Below, piece after piece: positions 3,896 to 26,794 of a stretch of 28,683 nucleotides of DNA. Position 1 is the first letter of the stretch, and each line of letters starts with the position of its first letter. Under the pieces are notes generated by a model. The model was not told the origin of the DNA, searched no databases, and worked only from the letters and a program-made list of their open reading frames with translations. The DNA comes from a virus. Location of the stretch: positions 1 to 28,683 of IMG/VR virus record IMGVR_UViG_3300032240_000554, one strand, 5' to 3'. The position numbers and the translations under genes were made by a program.

Positions 3896-4372
3896 ATGCC
3901 TAAATGTTATCAATTGATTGGAGTGCCGGCTAGTGGAAAAAGTACCTGGTACAAAAATCAAGACTGGCTAGTTGAGGACAAAAAGGATCACAAGTATGTA
4001 TCTACTGATCAGCATGTTGAAGGATATGCTCTTGATCAAGGTAAGACTTATAGTGAAGTCTTTGATGAGTACATGCCTACTGCCGTTAAGCAAATGATGG
4101 TGAATGTGAACTTTGCCGCGGCATTGAAAATTGACATTGTTTGGGATCAAACCAGTACCACCATAGCAAGCAGGGCTCGCAAGTTTAATGCATTACCCGA
4201 ATACGAACATATTGCTGTGGTATTCCGTACTCCGGATCGTTCGGAATTGGATGTAAGATTATCAGGACGTCCGGGTAAACACATTCCTAAGAACGTGATT
4301 GACAGCATGATTGCTGGTTGGGAAGAACCCTCACTGGAAGAAGGATTTAAAGAAATTTGGTACGCTGTTTGA
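3896..4372 (+). CDS. P-loop polynucleotide-kinase-like protein (kinase domain only)
   Basis: This 158-aa AAA_33-type kinase would transfer a phosphate from ATP, most likely to a nucleic-acid 5' end. Walker A is GVPASGKST (residues 9-17). A second block (STDQHVEG, about 37-44) is in the position of the substrate-binding Asp of T4 Pnkp. DQTSTTIASRARKF (about 82-95) parallels the T4 segment that follows the kinase core strand. RLSGRPGKHIPKNVIDSM resembles the T4 region of the phosphate-contacting lid arginine. The length equals the T4 Pnkp kinase domain alone; the C-terminal HAD phosphatase domain is absent. The gene starts 2 bases after the upstream stop. A nucleoside or small-molecule kinase is the main alternative. 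Confidence 0.75.
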   Translation: MPKCYQLIGVPASGKSTWYKNQDWLVEDKKDHKYVSTDQHVEGYALDQGKTYSEVFDEYMPTAVKQMMVNVNFAAALKIDIVWDQTSTTIASRARKFNALPEYEHIAVVFRTPDRSELDVRLSGRPGKHIPKNVIDSMIAGWEEPSLEEGFKEIWYAV

Positions 4373-4397
4373 CAGACTATGTATAGTCTGTTATAAT
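4369..4397 (+). promoter_or_regulatory. Consensus sigma70-type promoter with a palindromic spacer
   Basis: TTGACA (4369-4374) and TATAAT (4392-4397) are perfect consensus with a 17-base spacer. The spacer is almost entirely an 8-bp inverted repeat (ACAGACTA 4372-4379 and TAGTCTGT 4384-4391) around TGTA. It could be an operator or a weak terminator hairpin for the kinase gene, whose last codons overlap the -35 box. The predicted start near 4404 leaves a short leader with AAAGAAAG before the ATG at 4421. Confidence 0.82.
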
Positions 4398-4420: not shown

Positions 4421-4867
4421 ATGAAAATTGGTCTTAGTTACAGTCGGTGTGTTCGAGACATTGTCGATGGTGTAGTAGACATCAACGATGTTCTGGTTAT
4501 TATTGCCCGTACAGATTTCGATCCGCATGACGATCTACAATGGCAAGGTATTTGGCAAGGTTATGCCGGAGGATCTGACGCGGCCATGATGCGAGGATTC
4601 TTTGGTGGCAGTAATCCAGAATGGGCTGGTACAACAGATGAAGATGAAAACAAATATCGCAGTGTAAGTATCGAGCTGTGGGAGACAGGTAAACTCCATC
4701 AGCCTCGTAAGTTTGGAGCACATCCCAGACGCCGTCCTGAAATTTGGCTCGAAGCAATTCTGCCAAGTAGCGAGTTAGAGACAAATCCAACCGCTAAGAA
4801 AGCATGGGATCAGTTCCAAACTATCGCTGGATTAAGCAATGTATCGTTGGATAAAGATTATCAATGA
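4421..4867 (+). CDS. Conserved phage hypothetical protein
   Basis: A 148-aa protein expressed from the promoter at 4369. The N-terminus (MKIGLSYSRCVRDIVDGVVD) leads into a hydrophobic strand (DVLVIIARTDFDP), then a Trp/Gly-rich stretch and a basic FGAHPRRRPEIWLE segment. The pattern looks like a conserved small phage family, but no activity is recognisable. It overlaps the next gene by 4 bases (ATGA). A weak ribosome-binding site may be offset by the strong promoter. Confidence 0.65.
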   Translation: MKIGLSYSRCVRDIVDGVVDINDVLVIIARTDFDPHDDLQWQGIWQGYAGGSDAAMMRGFFGGSNPEWAGTTDEDENKYRSVSIELWETGKLHQPRKFGAHPRRRPEIWLEAILPSSELETNPTAKKAWDQFQTIAGLSNVSLDKDYQ

Positions 4868-5891: not shown

Positions 5892-6130
5892 TGGAAATTG
5901 AAACAAAAGACAGAATAAAAGAATTAATTAGTCGAGCAGAAACAGACAGCAGTGGTAGATGGATATCTGCCGTTGATCTCGAATCTTATACAAAAGAAGT
6001 TATCAACGAGTGTATAGAAGTTGTAAAAACAACTCCTAAGCATTGTGCGTATACTTCATTCCAAGAAAATATAGTTGACTGCACTGTAGAGATGAGTGTA
6101 CAATCTATTAAACAACATTTTAACCTATGA
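5891..6130 (+). CDS. Small conserved phage protein
   Basis: A 79-aa protein starting on the last base of the previous stop codon, with AAGGAG upstream. It is mostly helical: [16 protein letters not shown], then [26 protein letters not shown], then [11 protein letters not shown]. The VINECIEVV...TPxHCAYT...SVxSIxxHF pattern is common among T4-like and other phage hypotheticals. It overlaps clpP by 4 bases (ATGA), so the two are probably co-translated. Confidence 0.68.
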
Positions 6131-6723
6131 TTCAAGATAATTTAGTCCCAATGGTGGTTGAGAAGACCGGTCAAGGCGAACGTGCCTTTGATATTTACAG
6201 TCGTTTGCTTAATGAGCGTATTGTGTTCTTAAACGGACCAGTTGATGATTACAGCGCCAACTTGGTTATTGCTCAAATGCTTCATTTAGAGAGTGCCGAT
6301 TCTGAGAAAGATATTCACTTTTATATTAATAGTCCAGGCGGTGTTATTACTGCTGGTATGGGCATCTATGATGTAATGCAGTTTATTAAACCAGATGTAG
6401 CAACCTATGTTATTGGACAGGCCTGCTCAATGGGTAGTTTCTTGTCTCAAGCAGGACATCCTGGTAAACGTCATATGTTACCAAACAGCCGACACATGAT
6501 TCACCAACCTAGCGGAGGTGCTCGCGGCATGGCAAGTGACATTGAAATTAGCTACAAAGAAATTATGTTCTGGAAAAAGCGTCTTACTGAACTGTATGTC
6601 AAACATAATACCGCGGGCAAGACATACCAAGACTTTGAACGCGATATGGACAGAGATACGTTCATGGCTGCAGAAGATGCTTTAGCATATGGTCTATGCG
6701 ATAAGATTATCGAGAACAGATAA
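6127..6723 (+). CDS. clpP: ATP-dependent Clp protease proteolytic subunit
   Basis: A 198-aa serine peptidase of the ClpP family, closely host-like from its first residues ([23 protein letters not shown]). The triad is S101 in [10 protein letters not shown]126 in [11 protein letters not shown] and D177 in ERDMDRDTF. The [12 protein letters not shown] oxyanion/hairpin block (68-79) and the C-terminal YGLCDKI strand are present. The length matches mature bacterial ClpP with almost no propeptide. It would form a tetradecamer and needs a ClpA/ClpX unfoldase, presumably the host's. Unlike lambdoid-type head proteases it is not fused to, or next to, portal or capsid genes. That points to altering host protein turnover rather than capsid maturation. 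Confidence 0.95.
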
Positions 6724-6739
6724 TATCATAACAAAACTT

Positions 6740-6775
6740 ACTCCTTAAGTAGATTAAATATTTTACTTAAGGAGT
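6740..6775 (+). promoter_or_regulatory. RBS-sequestering hairpin with an internal late-promoter-like element
   Basis: A perfect 12-bp inverted repeat (6740-6751 with 6764-6775) closes a 12-base loop. Its 3' arm contains AAGGAG (6769-6774), the ribosome-binding site for the ATG at 6781. ATTAAATA (6753-6760; 6 of 8 matches to TATAAATA) lies at the loop. A T4-type late start would fall at about 6766, inside the 3' arm. Read-through RNA would fold and hide the site, whereas late RNA would lack the 5' arm and be open. Confidence 0.7.
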
Positions 6776-6780
6776 TCATT

Positions 6781-7095
6781 ATGGCATCAAAATTAAACAT
6801 CATTAAACAATCTATTGGCAAATTAAACATCGAAAGAAAACTCTGGCTAGCACTTAGCGGATTGGTAGTTGCCGCATCTTTTGTATTATTCCTAGGATGG
6901 AATTCTATACAGGTAAATCATCTTCAATGGGTTTTTGTAACTTTAGGAATTACCGTATCTATGATATGGTGGTTTTGGACTATGCGTCTAATTCGTATAA
7001 TTTTAAACCATCGTCTTACTGAAGTTGAGATATTACAAGAAATCGTCAACGACATTAAAGACATAAAAATTAATGTTGCCAATCTTAACAAATAA
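6781..7095 (+). CDS. Two-helix membrane protein, possible holin-like
   Basis: A 104-aa protein with a basic N-terminus and two predicted transmembrane helices (about residues 21-42 and 47-68) joined by a short loop. A charged C-terminal helix follows (LTEVEILQEIVNDIKDIKINVANL). The size, two helices and charged ends suit a small inner-membrane protein such as a holin or an accessory lysis protein. No lysis gene is adjacent, so this is only a suggestion. The hairpin just upstream would restrict translation to late transcripts. The N-terminus carries a local duplication (KLNI...GKLNIERK). Confidence 0.68.
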   Translation: MASKLNIIKQSIGKLNIERKLWLALSGLVVAASFVLFLGWNSIQVNHLQWVFVTLGITVSMIWWFWTMRLIRIILNHRLTEVEILQEIVNDIKDIKINVANLNK

Positions 7096-7135
7096 ATATT
7101 GACACAGCGTTAACAACCTGTATAATGTTATACAG
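7091..7135 (+). promoter_or_regulatory. Probable dual promoter with a dyad over the -10 box
   Basis: TTGACA (7099-7104) and TATAAT (7121-7126) are perfect hexamers with a 16-base spacer. A late-type AATAAATA (7091-7098) abuts the -35 box. A perfect 8-bp inverted repeat (CTGTATAA 7118-7125, TTATACAG 7128-7135) is centred on the -10 and early transcribed region, as an operator might be. The leader to the ATG at 7216 is about 80 bases and ends in AAAGGAGA. I see no riboswitch in it. Confidence 0.75.
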
Positions 7136-7215
7136 TGGTCTTACATGGCATTCATCCCACTTTAAATACTCTGCATGTCATCAAACTTGCTACTTTACAA
7201 TAAAGGAGACTAGAG

Positions 7216-7722
7216 ATGGCAAATCTTCAACCCGTACAATATAAGTACACATCAACCAAAGAGTACGTCGACGCATTCCCTTGCGCTTATCGCCAATGGC
7301 GAGCTGACTCTCACTGTAATTTGAACCATGGTTACAGTTTTTCAATGAAGTTTTATTTCGGCACAAATGATCTAGACGTTCGTAATTGGGCGGCTGATTA
7401 TGGTGGCCTTAAGGAACTTAAAAAAATACTAGAGGATCAATTTGATCATACTACACTGGTATCACAAGACGATCCGGAACTAGAGTTCTACAAAGAAATG
7501 GAACGCCGTAAGTTGGCTAAACTTACAATCTTGCCTAGAGTAGGATGCGAGTCATTAGCTGATATGCTTTACAAATATGTAAATGGTGTTTATATTCCCG
7601 ATATGTGGGGCGAAGGCGAATCAAAACGCCTATGGTGCTACCGCGTTGAAGTACGTGAGACACAGGCTAATATGGCTTTCCGTGAAGGTCACCGTGAATG
7701 GAATGAAGATCTATTTGCGTAA
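7216..7722 (+). CDS. 6-pyruvoyl/6-carboxy-tetrahydropterin synthase-like protein (QueD family)
   Basis: A 168-aa T-fold protein of the PTPS/QueD superfamily, which makes pterins from 7,8-dihydroneopterin triphosphate (folate/biopterin or queuosine/deazapurine pathways). Matches are the nucleophile region SHCNLNHGYSFSMKFYF (C34), DYGGLKELKKIL (61-72), FDHTTL (H78) and the C-terminal VEVRET (E148). The usual zinc HxH is HGY here (H38, Y40), and the first zinc His is not clear; I believe the HGY form recurs in phage members. It has its own promoter and a good RBS (AAAGGAGA). No queC/queE/queF-like gene is in the window, so it may feed host pterin or 7-deazaguanine synthesis. Confidence 0.82.
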   Translation: MANLQPVQYKYTSTKEYVDAFPCAYRQWRADSHCNLNHGYSFSMKFYFGTNDLDVRNWAADYGGLKELKKILEDQFDHTTLVSQDDPELEFYKEMERRKLAKLTILPRVGCESLADMLYKYVNGVYIPDMWGEGESKRLWCYRVEVRETQANMAFREGHREWNEDLFA

Positions 7723-9061: not shown

Positions 9062-9238
9062 ATGAATCAATTTAGAAATTGGTACGTTCGCAACCAGGAT
9101 GCGATCACATGGTTTATTATTGGATGGGTATCACTTAGCTGTATTAATAGTTTGTCCAAAGGTGATTATATGTGGGCTATCTTTGACGCCTTTATTGTCT
9201 TTGCTAATTATAAACTTAGAAATATAAGATTATCATGA
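9062..9238 (+). CDS. Small membrane protein
   Basis: A 58-aa protein starting one base after the previous stop codon, with AAGGAA upstream. The start at 9041 is possible but would overlap more. Hydrophobic segments (ITWFIIGWVSLSCI, about 16-30, and YMWAIFDAFIVFANY, about 43-56) suggest two short membrane helices, with a positively charged N-terminus and loop. It overlaps the nucleotidyltransferase ATG by 4 bases (ATGA). Its partners and function are unknown. Confidence 0.62.
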   Translation: MNQFRNWYVRNQDAITWFIIGWVSLSCINSLSKGDYMWAIFDAFIVFANYKLRNIRLS

Positions 9239-9720
9239 AAATAGGATTTAACTGTAGTAGTTTTGATTTACTCCACGCTGGACATGTTACCATGCTCAAA
9301 ATGGAAAAAGATTTATGCGACTACTTAAAAGTTGCCCTACAGGTAGATCCTACTATTGATCGTCCAGGAACTAAAAATAAACCTGTTCAAAGTGTATATG
9401 AACGTTATGTTCAACTTCAGGCATGTAAGTATGTTGACGAGATTTTGGTCTATGAGACCGAATTAGATCTACTTAATTTATTACAAACACAGACTATCCA
9501 TATCCGTTTTCTCAGTGAAGAATATTTAAACAGAGACTTTACCGGAAAACAGTATTGCCTGAATAACGGCATAGAATTACATTACCATAAGAGACAGCAT
9601 CAGTATAGCAGTTCCGAACTACGTAATAGAGTATATCAACTTGAGTTGACAAAAGCACAAGATTCAAGTATAATAAATGTACCACAACATAGTACAGAGC
9701 TCTTAAACAAATACAAATGA
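9235..9720 (+). CDS. TagD-like nucleotidyltransferase (cytidylyltransferase family)
   Basis: A 161-aa member of the HxGH nucleotidyltransferase superfamily. It has FDLLHAGHVTML (HAGH at 14-17) after the first strand, DPTIDRP (38-44), the conserved ERYVQLQACKYVDE core, and a YSSSELR block (124-130) equivalent to the ISSTxxR signature that holds the triphosphate. The likely reaction joins CTP (or ATP) to a phosphorylated sugar or alcohol, releasing pyrophosphate. Substrates such as glycerol-3-phosphate or a heptose phosphate cannot be told from the sequence. About 17 kb downstream is a paralogue (26330-26794). The last 80 bases of this gene also carry a promoter for the next gene. Confidence 0.88.
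   Translation: MKIGFNCSSFDLLHAGHVTMLKMEKDLCDYLKVALQVDPTIDRPGTKNKPVQSVYERYVQLQACKYVDEILVYETELDLLNLLQTQTIHIRFLSEEYLNRDFTGKQYCLNNGIELHYHKRQHQYSSSELRNRVYQLELTKAQDSSIINVPQHSTELLNKYK
9646..9674 (+). promoter_or_regulatory. Consensus sigma70-type promoter inside a coding sequence
   Basis: TTGACA (9646-9651) and TATAAT (9669-9674) match the consensus perfectly with a 17-base spacer, inside the last codons of the nucleotidyltransferase gene. The start site would fall near 9681, about 36 bases before the ATG at 9717, so it could drive the 154-aa gene and the UvdE gene. Since the bases are also coding, chance cannot be excluded. Confidence 0.65.
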
Positions 9721-11199: not shown

Positions 11200-11501
11200 G
11201 AAGAATAAGTTTCTTCGTGTAATAATATAATTCCGTTATCTTTGTTATGTTGATCTCTAGAGGCATGCCATTGCTGTAATGCTTCGTCATGCCACCATTG
11301 ATCAACTGCCTGCCTTGATTCCCACTCACTGGTTACAGTCATAACCAGTGTTCCAATGCCTTCTCTAGAAGTTTTAATCCATAGCTTAGGCTTAGAGTAT
11401 GTTTCATCCAAATGTGTTCGAACTTCCTGGGTAGTACTTTCAAACGCCCACGGAACTGCTTTAGATGGCCTAGACCATTGTTGTTTGGTAAAAAAAGACA
11501 T
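11196..11501 (-). CDS. Small hypothetical protein, minus strand, late-type promoter
   Basis: A 101-aa protein on the minus strand, rich in Trp and charged residues. The pattern IGTLVMTVTSEWESRQAVDQWWHDEALQQWHASRDQHN, a strand followed by a helix with repeated Trp/His, recalls dimeric alpha-beta barrel (ABM/EthD-like) folds; this is a weak inference. The ATG has GAGGAA upstream and a late promoter-like GATAAATA at 11526-11533. Its stop codon overlaps the UvdE stop. The strand switch and dedicated promoter support a real gene. Confidence 0.65.
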   Translation of the reverse strand: MSFFTKQQWSRPSKAVPWAFESTTQEVRTHLDETYSKPKLWIKTSREGIGTLVMTVTSEWESRQAVDQWWHDEALQQWHASRDQHNKDNGIILLHEETYSS

Positions 11502-26182: not shown

Positions 26183-26333
26183 TACTTGTAATAAAGAATA
26201 TGATATTACCTGCGATTGGAATCAAGGCCGGTGTCCCCATCATCCTGCGTTAATTGATCAAATTTTGAATGACCCTTATAAAAGTAGGATCTATAATCTA
26301 CTACAAACAATCAAAGGATTTTTTAAGAAATGA
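26172..26333 (+). CDS. Very small zinc-finger-like protein
   Basis: A 53-codon gene coding a peptide beginning MKCNTCNKEYDITCDWNQGRCPHHPAL. C3-x2-C6, C14, C21 and H23-H24 suggest a small zinc-binding module; the C-terminus is helical and basic (SRIYNLLQTIKGFFKK). It overlaps the gene before it by 11 bases and the nucleotidyltransferase after it by 4 bases (ATGA). That the gap is fully filled supports it. Confidence 0.62.
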   Translation: MKCNTCNKEYDITCDWNQGRCPHHPALIDQILNDPYKSRIYNLLQTIKGFFKK

Positions 26334-26794
26334 TTTTTAATAAAATCAAACAATTAAAAGAAGACGGGCTAACCGTAGGAATTGTATTCAGCTCTTTTGA
26401 TTTGTTCCATGCCGGTCATGTTGCTATGTTGGCAGAAGCAAAGAATCATTGTGATTACTTAATTGCCGCACTTCAAACAGATCCAACTATTGATCGCCCA
26501 GATACAAAAAATCCTCCTATTCAAAGTATCGTAGAACGACAGATACAAGTTAGTACAAATCGAAATGTGGACGAAGTAGTTGTATATCAAACAGAAAAAG
26601 ATCTTGAAGATCTCTTGCTTATTCTGCCCGTTGATGTTAGAATATTAGGTGTAGAGTACGCAGACAAAGAATTTACAGGTAAAGATATTTGTAAAAAGCG
26701 TGGAATTGAGATTGTCTATAACGGACGAGATCATTCTTTTAGTTCATCAAGTCTACGCAAACGTGTAGCAGAAGCAGAAGGAAATAAAAAATGA
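26330..26794 (+). CDS. TagD-like nucleotidyltransferase, second copy
   Basis: A 154-aa paralogue of the gene at 9235, with an N-terminal extension of about 13 residues. It has FSSFDLFHAGHVAML (HAGH at 27-30), DPTIDRPDTKNPPIQS, ERQIQVSTNRNVDEVVVY, and HSFSSSSLRKRV (SSSLR at 139-143). Core residues for nucleotide binding are all present, so both copies look active. The reaction is probably CTP (or ATP) plus a phosphorylated alcohol or sugar. The two copies have diverged well beyond recent duplication. It is coupled to the small zinc-finger gene by ATGA. Confidence 0.86.
   Translation: MIFNKIKQLKEDGLTVGIVFSSFDLFHAGHVAMLAEAKNHCDYLIAALQTDPTIDRPDTKNPPIQSIVERQIQVSTNRNVDEVVVYQTEKDLEDLLLILPVDVRILGVEYADKEFTGKDICKKRGIEIVYNGRDHSFSSSSLRKRVAEAEGNKK

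Follow-up and report, generated by a model that had tools for sequence, protein, structure and literature searches.

A putative late promoter inside a ribosome-binding-site hairpin before a membrane-protein gene in uncultured T4-related phages

In a T4-related phage belonging to a group of jumbo, uncultured T4-related phages, the gene that follows clpP encodes a small membrane protein and is probably a late gene located within an early operon, gated by a hairpin that covers its ribosome-binding site and carries a promoter within it. Judging from the sequence, we give this reading a probability of roughly 0.8. The DNA analysed, hereafter the window, is a 28.7-kb fragment comprising positions 1–28,683 of IMGVR_UViG_3300032240_000554. 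According to the model, host sigma70 polymerase would start at 4369 and transcribe on through clpP, and in the resulting read-through RNA a hairpin of 12–14 bp would pair the Shine-Dalgarno (SD) sequence and so prevent translation of the membrane-protein gene. At a later stage, a phage sigma of the gp55 type would recognise ATTAAATA at the hairpin loop and direct RNA to start within the 3′ arm, near 6766. Such RNA would be devoid of the 5′ arm, its ribosome site would be open, and the membrane protein would be made only late. We infer where the RNA actually starts, the timing, the repression and what the protein does.

The two arms, ACTCCTTAAGTA and TACTTAAGGAGT, pair perfectly over 12 bp, and RNAfold extends the stem to 14 pairs, one of which includes the first A of ATTAAATA (Table 1). 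AAGGAG sits in the 3′ arm, 6 nt 5′ of the membrane-protein ATG. The folding energy of the hairpin region is −23.1 kcal/mol vs −10.3 ± 2.6 kcal/mol for shuffles (z −4.9, 0/200); no other inverted repeat of at least 10 bp within 60 nt occurs between 5500 and 8500, and the upstream region of the gene ranks 8th in folding energy among 1531 genes of the window and nine relative contigs. Rfam contains no family matching the hairpin. The predicted probability that the SD is unpaired is 0.00 in the read-through RNA and 0.43 in the late RNA. Over 31 loci the corresponding medians are 0.00 and, for RNA begun 6 nt after TAAATA, 0.51; partial pairing is predicted to remain in late RNA, with an accessibility of only about 0.5, and other strong-SD genes of these phages have a similar value, 0.41. 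T4 gene e, used as a control, is laid out in the same way, and its SD has an unpaired probability of 0 in the read-through transcript. The preliminary description of this DNA had claimed a perfect 12-bp hairpin hiding AAGGAG, a late-like sequence in its loop and an RNA start within the 3′ arm. The first two are confirmed, and for the third, the position 6 nt past the last A of ATTAAATA does fall inside the arm, where spacing alone places the presumed start.

Table 1. Features of the clpP–membrane-protein region in the window and, in the last row, of related loci
Feature	Position	Strand	Basis
Perfect sigma70-type promoter TTGACA-N17-TATAAT of the operon ending in clpP	4369..4397	+	12/12 matches
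clpP-like protease gene, source of the read-through RNA	6127..6723	+	PF00574, 3.7e-75
Hairpin 5′ arm ACTCCTTAAGTA, anti-SD	6740..6751	+	Repeat search, folding, covariation
ATTAAATA, T4-type late-promoter-like element at the hairpin loop	6753..6760	+	TAAATA invariant in 31/31 relatives; top upstream hexamer, without −35
Hairpin 3′ arm TACTTAAGGAGT	6764..6775	+	Repeat search, folding
Predicted late transcription start, 6 nt after the element	6766	+	T4 late-promoter spacing (PMC2988020)
Shine-Dalgarno AAGGAG, predicted to be paired in read-through RNA	6769..6774	+	Predicted unpaired probability
104-aa membrane protein, two predicted membrane helices	6781..7095	+	Translation, helix prediction
Perfect sigma70-type promoter TTGACA-N16-TATAAT before the QueD-like gene, predicted to restart early transcription	7099..7126	+	Sequence match
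Longer clpP-downstream hairpin in relatives	L021 4586-4655; L051 4583-4680; L061/L063 4583-4655; L073 1934-2005		

A search of IMG/VR with the ClpP protein yielded 80 loci. In about 42 of these, with leaders judged by eye, a short membrane-protein ORF directly follows clpP and is preceded by TAAATA, usually within a stem; 31 of them are distinct. TAAATA is identical in 31/31, and a stable stem is kept in most. RNAalifold on a MAFFT alignment returned no structure because the arms lie at differing offsets, and we turned instead to a covariance model and to swapping arms between loci without a fixed register. Duplexes formed by a locus's own arms average −15.8 kcal/mol vs −11.2 ± 0.5 kcal/mol when arms are swapped between loci, a difference reached in 0/20,000 permutations and persisting with 24, 16 or 9 mutually dissimilar loci. 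In the covariance-model alignment 85.1% of cells pair vs 79.6 ± 0.9% after shuffling, and 20 cells are changed on both sides vs 5.8 ± 2.1. All four Watson–Crick pair types are found at several stem positions outside the SD core. When about 1 Mb of relative contigs was searched with the model, every match at E < 0.01 lay at the membrane-protein gene. The preliminary description had proposed covariation of the arms in relatives as a check of its reading; the arms do covary, and the pattern is not one of unconserved arms beside a kept SD.

Loci with a QueD-like gene directly 3′ of clpP lack such a hairpin, with the exception of L010, which has a TAAATA hairpin remnant. There (4580-4660), TAAATA lies between CTCTTGT and ACAAGAG after clpP and the membrane gene is absent, as if the gene had been lost and the leader kept. 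Searching from the membrane protein instead of clpP, we found TAAATA in 27 of 48 distinct upstream regions, 13 of the 27 with a stem at p ≤ 0.01. Distant homologues of the membrane protein have other leaders; six of them (L259, L260, L262, L266, L268 and L282) carry a small stem-loop with repeated AGGC(A/T) about 10–13 nt before the start codon, without TAAATA.

Is TAAATA a promoter element? Across the entire window, neither TATAAATA nor WWWAAATA occurs more often than by chance, and enrichment was therefore tested by position. TAAATA stands upstream of 9/45 genes of the window vs 0.7 expected. Between −60 and −15 of genes in the window and eight relative contigs, no other hexamer is enriched as strongly as TAAATA (202 vs 22 expected, with the runner-up far behind; 222 vs 23 once contig G022 is added), and in T4 the same analysis also ranks it first (31 vs 7). 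Its upstream position peaks at −20 to −30. The −35 region at TAAATA sites is no better than shuffled, 4% having 5/6 of TTGACA, vs 32% at TATAAT sites in the same phages. In T4, a late promoter has no −35 and consists of a TATA box that precedes the start by roughly one turn of the helix (PMC2988020). Metabolic genes, too, can have TAAATA upstream, and a copy is located some 80 nt 5′ of the DNA polymerase gene; gp23 has none within 110 nt. The element is thus not a clean marker of structural genes, and "late" may not hold at every site. In family scans comparing TAAATA genes with others by function, virion genes fell in both sets. Just before the polymerase RBS, nine relatives (L327-L335) have tandem small stem-loop units such as GCGAGCCATAAATCGC. 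A single autogenous operator just before the RBS is known for T4 gene 43, and by analogy the tandem units may be polymerase-binding operators.

A homologue of gp55 (phrog_234) is encoded on contigs G009 and G022, followed, by our reading, by a gp47-like (phosphoesterase) gene, and G022 carries the gp55 homologue, gp23 and the hairpin together. A scan with the gp55-like protein gave 580 relatives among 600 matched stretches. No gp55 was found on the 28.7-kb window or on the closest hairpin-bearing contigs, all of them fragments, and a tail-sheath search in the phage group found none. With the genome-wide enrichment, the lack of a −35 and a gp55 homologue on a hairpin contig behind it, the identification of TAAATA as a late promoter in these phages is supported. 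The T4 gene e reading of the locus, as first put forward, is well supported by these features together with the covarying arms and the invariance of TAAATA.

The foremost alternative is that the hairpin regulates translation of every transcript, as an RNA thermometer, a protein-binding operator or a stability element, with TAAATA being a loop motif and not a promoter. An invariant loop with varying arms is what a loop-binding protein would leave, and the partial SD pairing predicted for late RNA would also suit this explanation. However, TAAATA is enriched before many genes that have no hairpin, with the positional peak given above, and it outlasts the stem: in L054 and L059 TAAATA is retained while the stem is slight or gone. 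We consider this explanation improbable.

The promoter-in-hairpin reading also requires that early transcripts reach the gene. From 4421 to the end of clpP the genes overlap or almost touch, as in a packed operon, and the membrane-gene ATG follows the end of clpP by 57 nt. A perfect sigma70 promoter lies 2–4 kb upstream of the clpP end in 11/20 relatives checked. A scan of the same strand detected no terminator-like site in the interval separating clpP from the membrane gene. The upstream promoter and the missing terminator back the prediction that early transcription reads through clpP into the membrane gene. Could the inverted repeat instead be a DNA operator for a repressor, or chiefly the transcription terminator of clpP? 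The palindrome is perfect in the window and a stop codon lies immediately 5′ of it, but the stem is not followed by a T tract, the terminator scan has no hit there, and among relatives the arms differ widely, with bulges and internal loops. Moreover, the antisense strand folds worse than the sense strand (p 0.011), which fits RNA with G–U pairs. This alternative appears less probable still than the previous one. That the hairpin arose by chance in an AT-rich leader is hardly credible: about 4% of TAAATA-less genes also have a leader at −12 kcal/mol or lower, but the compensating changes in relatives were matched in none of the 20,000 permutations.

Two further elements were noticed near the early promoters. 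The spacer of the upstream sigma70 promoter is a 10-bp palindrome, TGACAGACTA-TGTA-TAGTCTGTTA (window 4370-4393), a possible operator. At 7127-7190, 5′ of the QueD-like gene (7216-7722), lies a conserved element, GGTCTT..CATTCATCCC-GCTTTATAAACTCTGC, with 18 invariant columns over 10 loci; it is also present in L035, L038, L040, L041, L050, L053, L055 and L060, and in some relatives a CCTATG..CATAGGAG stem that covers the SD comes next. Rfam gave no match for this element, which resembles a riboswitch, perhaps one of preQ1 type in view of the QueD-like gene.

What does the hairpin guard? The window protein has no family match in PHROGs or Pfam, and INPHARED contains no phage encoding it or its L007 relative; relatives' membrane proteins give only scattered weak matches to many unrelated membrane families. 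A 57-aa one-helix form occupies the same place in relatives and shares a C-terminal segment with the two-helix form (hhalign probability 96.6). The AlphaFold2 model is a helical hairpin with a mean pLDDT of 78, and a fold search with it produced no significant structural match. Both forms, 104 aa with two helices and 57 aa with one, are in the range of holins, which are small and cross the membrane with one to three helices. The preliminary description had called the product a holin-sized membrane protein: the size holds, while homology to a holin family, sought by sequence and fold for the window protein and its relatives, was nowhere convincing. It is possible that the protein is a holin, as late timing and size would fit. 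With late gating, an early role, for instance in superinfection exclusion, would be less likely.

The gating mechanism itself is already known from T4 genes e, soc, 49 and I-TevI; the lineage and the target are new. In T4 gene e, the hairpin in long early transcripts cuts lysozyme synthesis 100-fold, and late transcripts lack its 5′ part (PMC3014915). Gene e has further features whose counterparts are predicted at our locus, namely an SD-pairing stem, a late promoter, TATAAATA, inside the hairpin and a gene located within an early transcript. Unlike gene e, the case described here concerns a membrane protein after clpP in another phage group and involves a single TAAATA element with relaxed upstream bases; and whereas the T4 mechanism was shown by experiment, ours is predicted. 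I-TevI and others work like gene e (PMC2988022). T4 soc, 49, I-TevI and segB and Aeh1 mobE are likewise late genes lying within early or middle transcripts; hairpins at the RBS silence them there, and a neighbouring late promoter releases them. Their products are a capsid protein, a recombination nuclease and homing endonucleases, and a membrane protein is not among the cases in the consulted passages of PMC2988022 and PMC3014915. The jumbo T4-related phages CBB and GAP32 similarly encode a gp55-like sigma, and their structural genes are preceded by an ATAAATA motif; in contrast to the present case, the consulted passages of PMC5259590 do not mention an RBS hairpin.

The arrangement may extend to other genes. 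In nine contigs, 171 genes have a TAAATA at about −18 to −45, and for about 18 of these genes the arms flanking it pair beyond shuffles (p ≤ 0.01); seven of the 18 are the membrane-protein gene discussed here, and the rest include tail-fibre-like and unknown genes. In relatives with a tail-fibre-like ORF after clpP, CTAAATAG is enclosed by a different, longer stem, which pairs with the start region of that ORF. This stem is predicted to open if RNA starts after the element, and would apparently represent the same late-promoter logic in another geometry. Elsewhere in the window, at 11501, a minus-strand ORF is preceded by another TAAATA whose flanks pair, though more weakly (−8.1 kcal/mol, p ~0.01), and two similar-looking nucleotidyltransferase-like ORFs are present at 9235-9720 and 26330-26794, the first matching phrog_7878. 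As a tentative suggestion, which we hold to be rather doubtful as a whole, the 104-aa and 57-aa forms would together form a novel protein family of jumbo T4-related phages, acting late in lysis or in membrane timing, and the promoter inside an RBS hairpin would be a general device of the group, used at several other genes.

If the main reading is correct, the classic control of T4 lysozyme would extend to a large group of uncultured phages. The covariation of the arms around an invariant putative promoter is evolutionary evidence of selection on the design, and a membrane protein without a family match would be marked as one that is not to be made early. TAAATA without a −35 would, in turn, provide a promoter signature that may be used to sort the genes of these phages by time.
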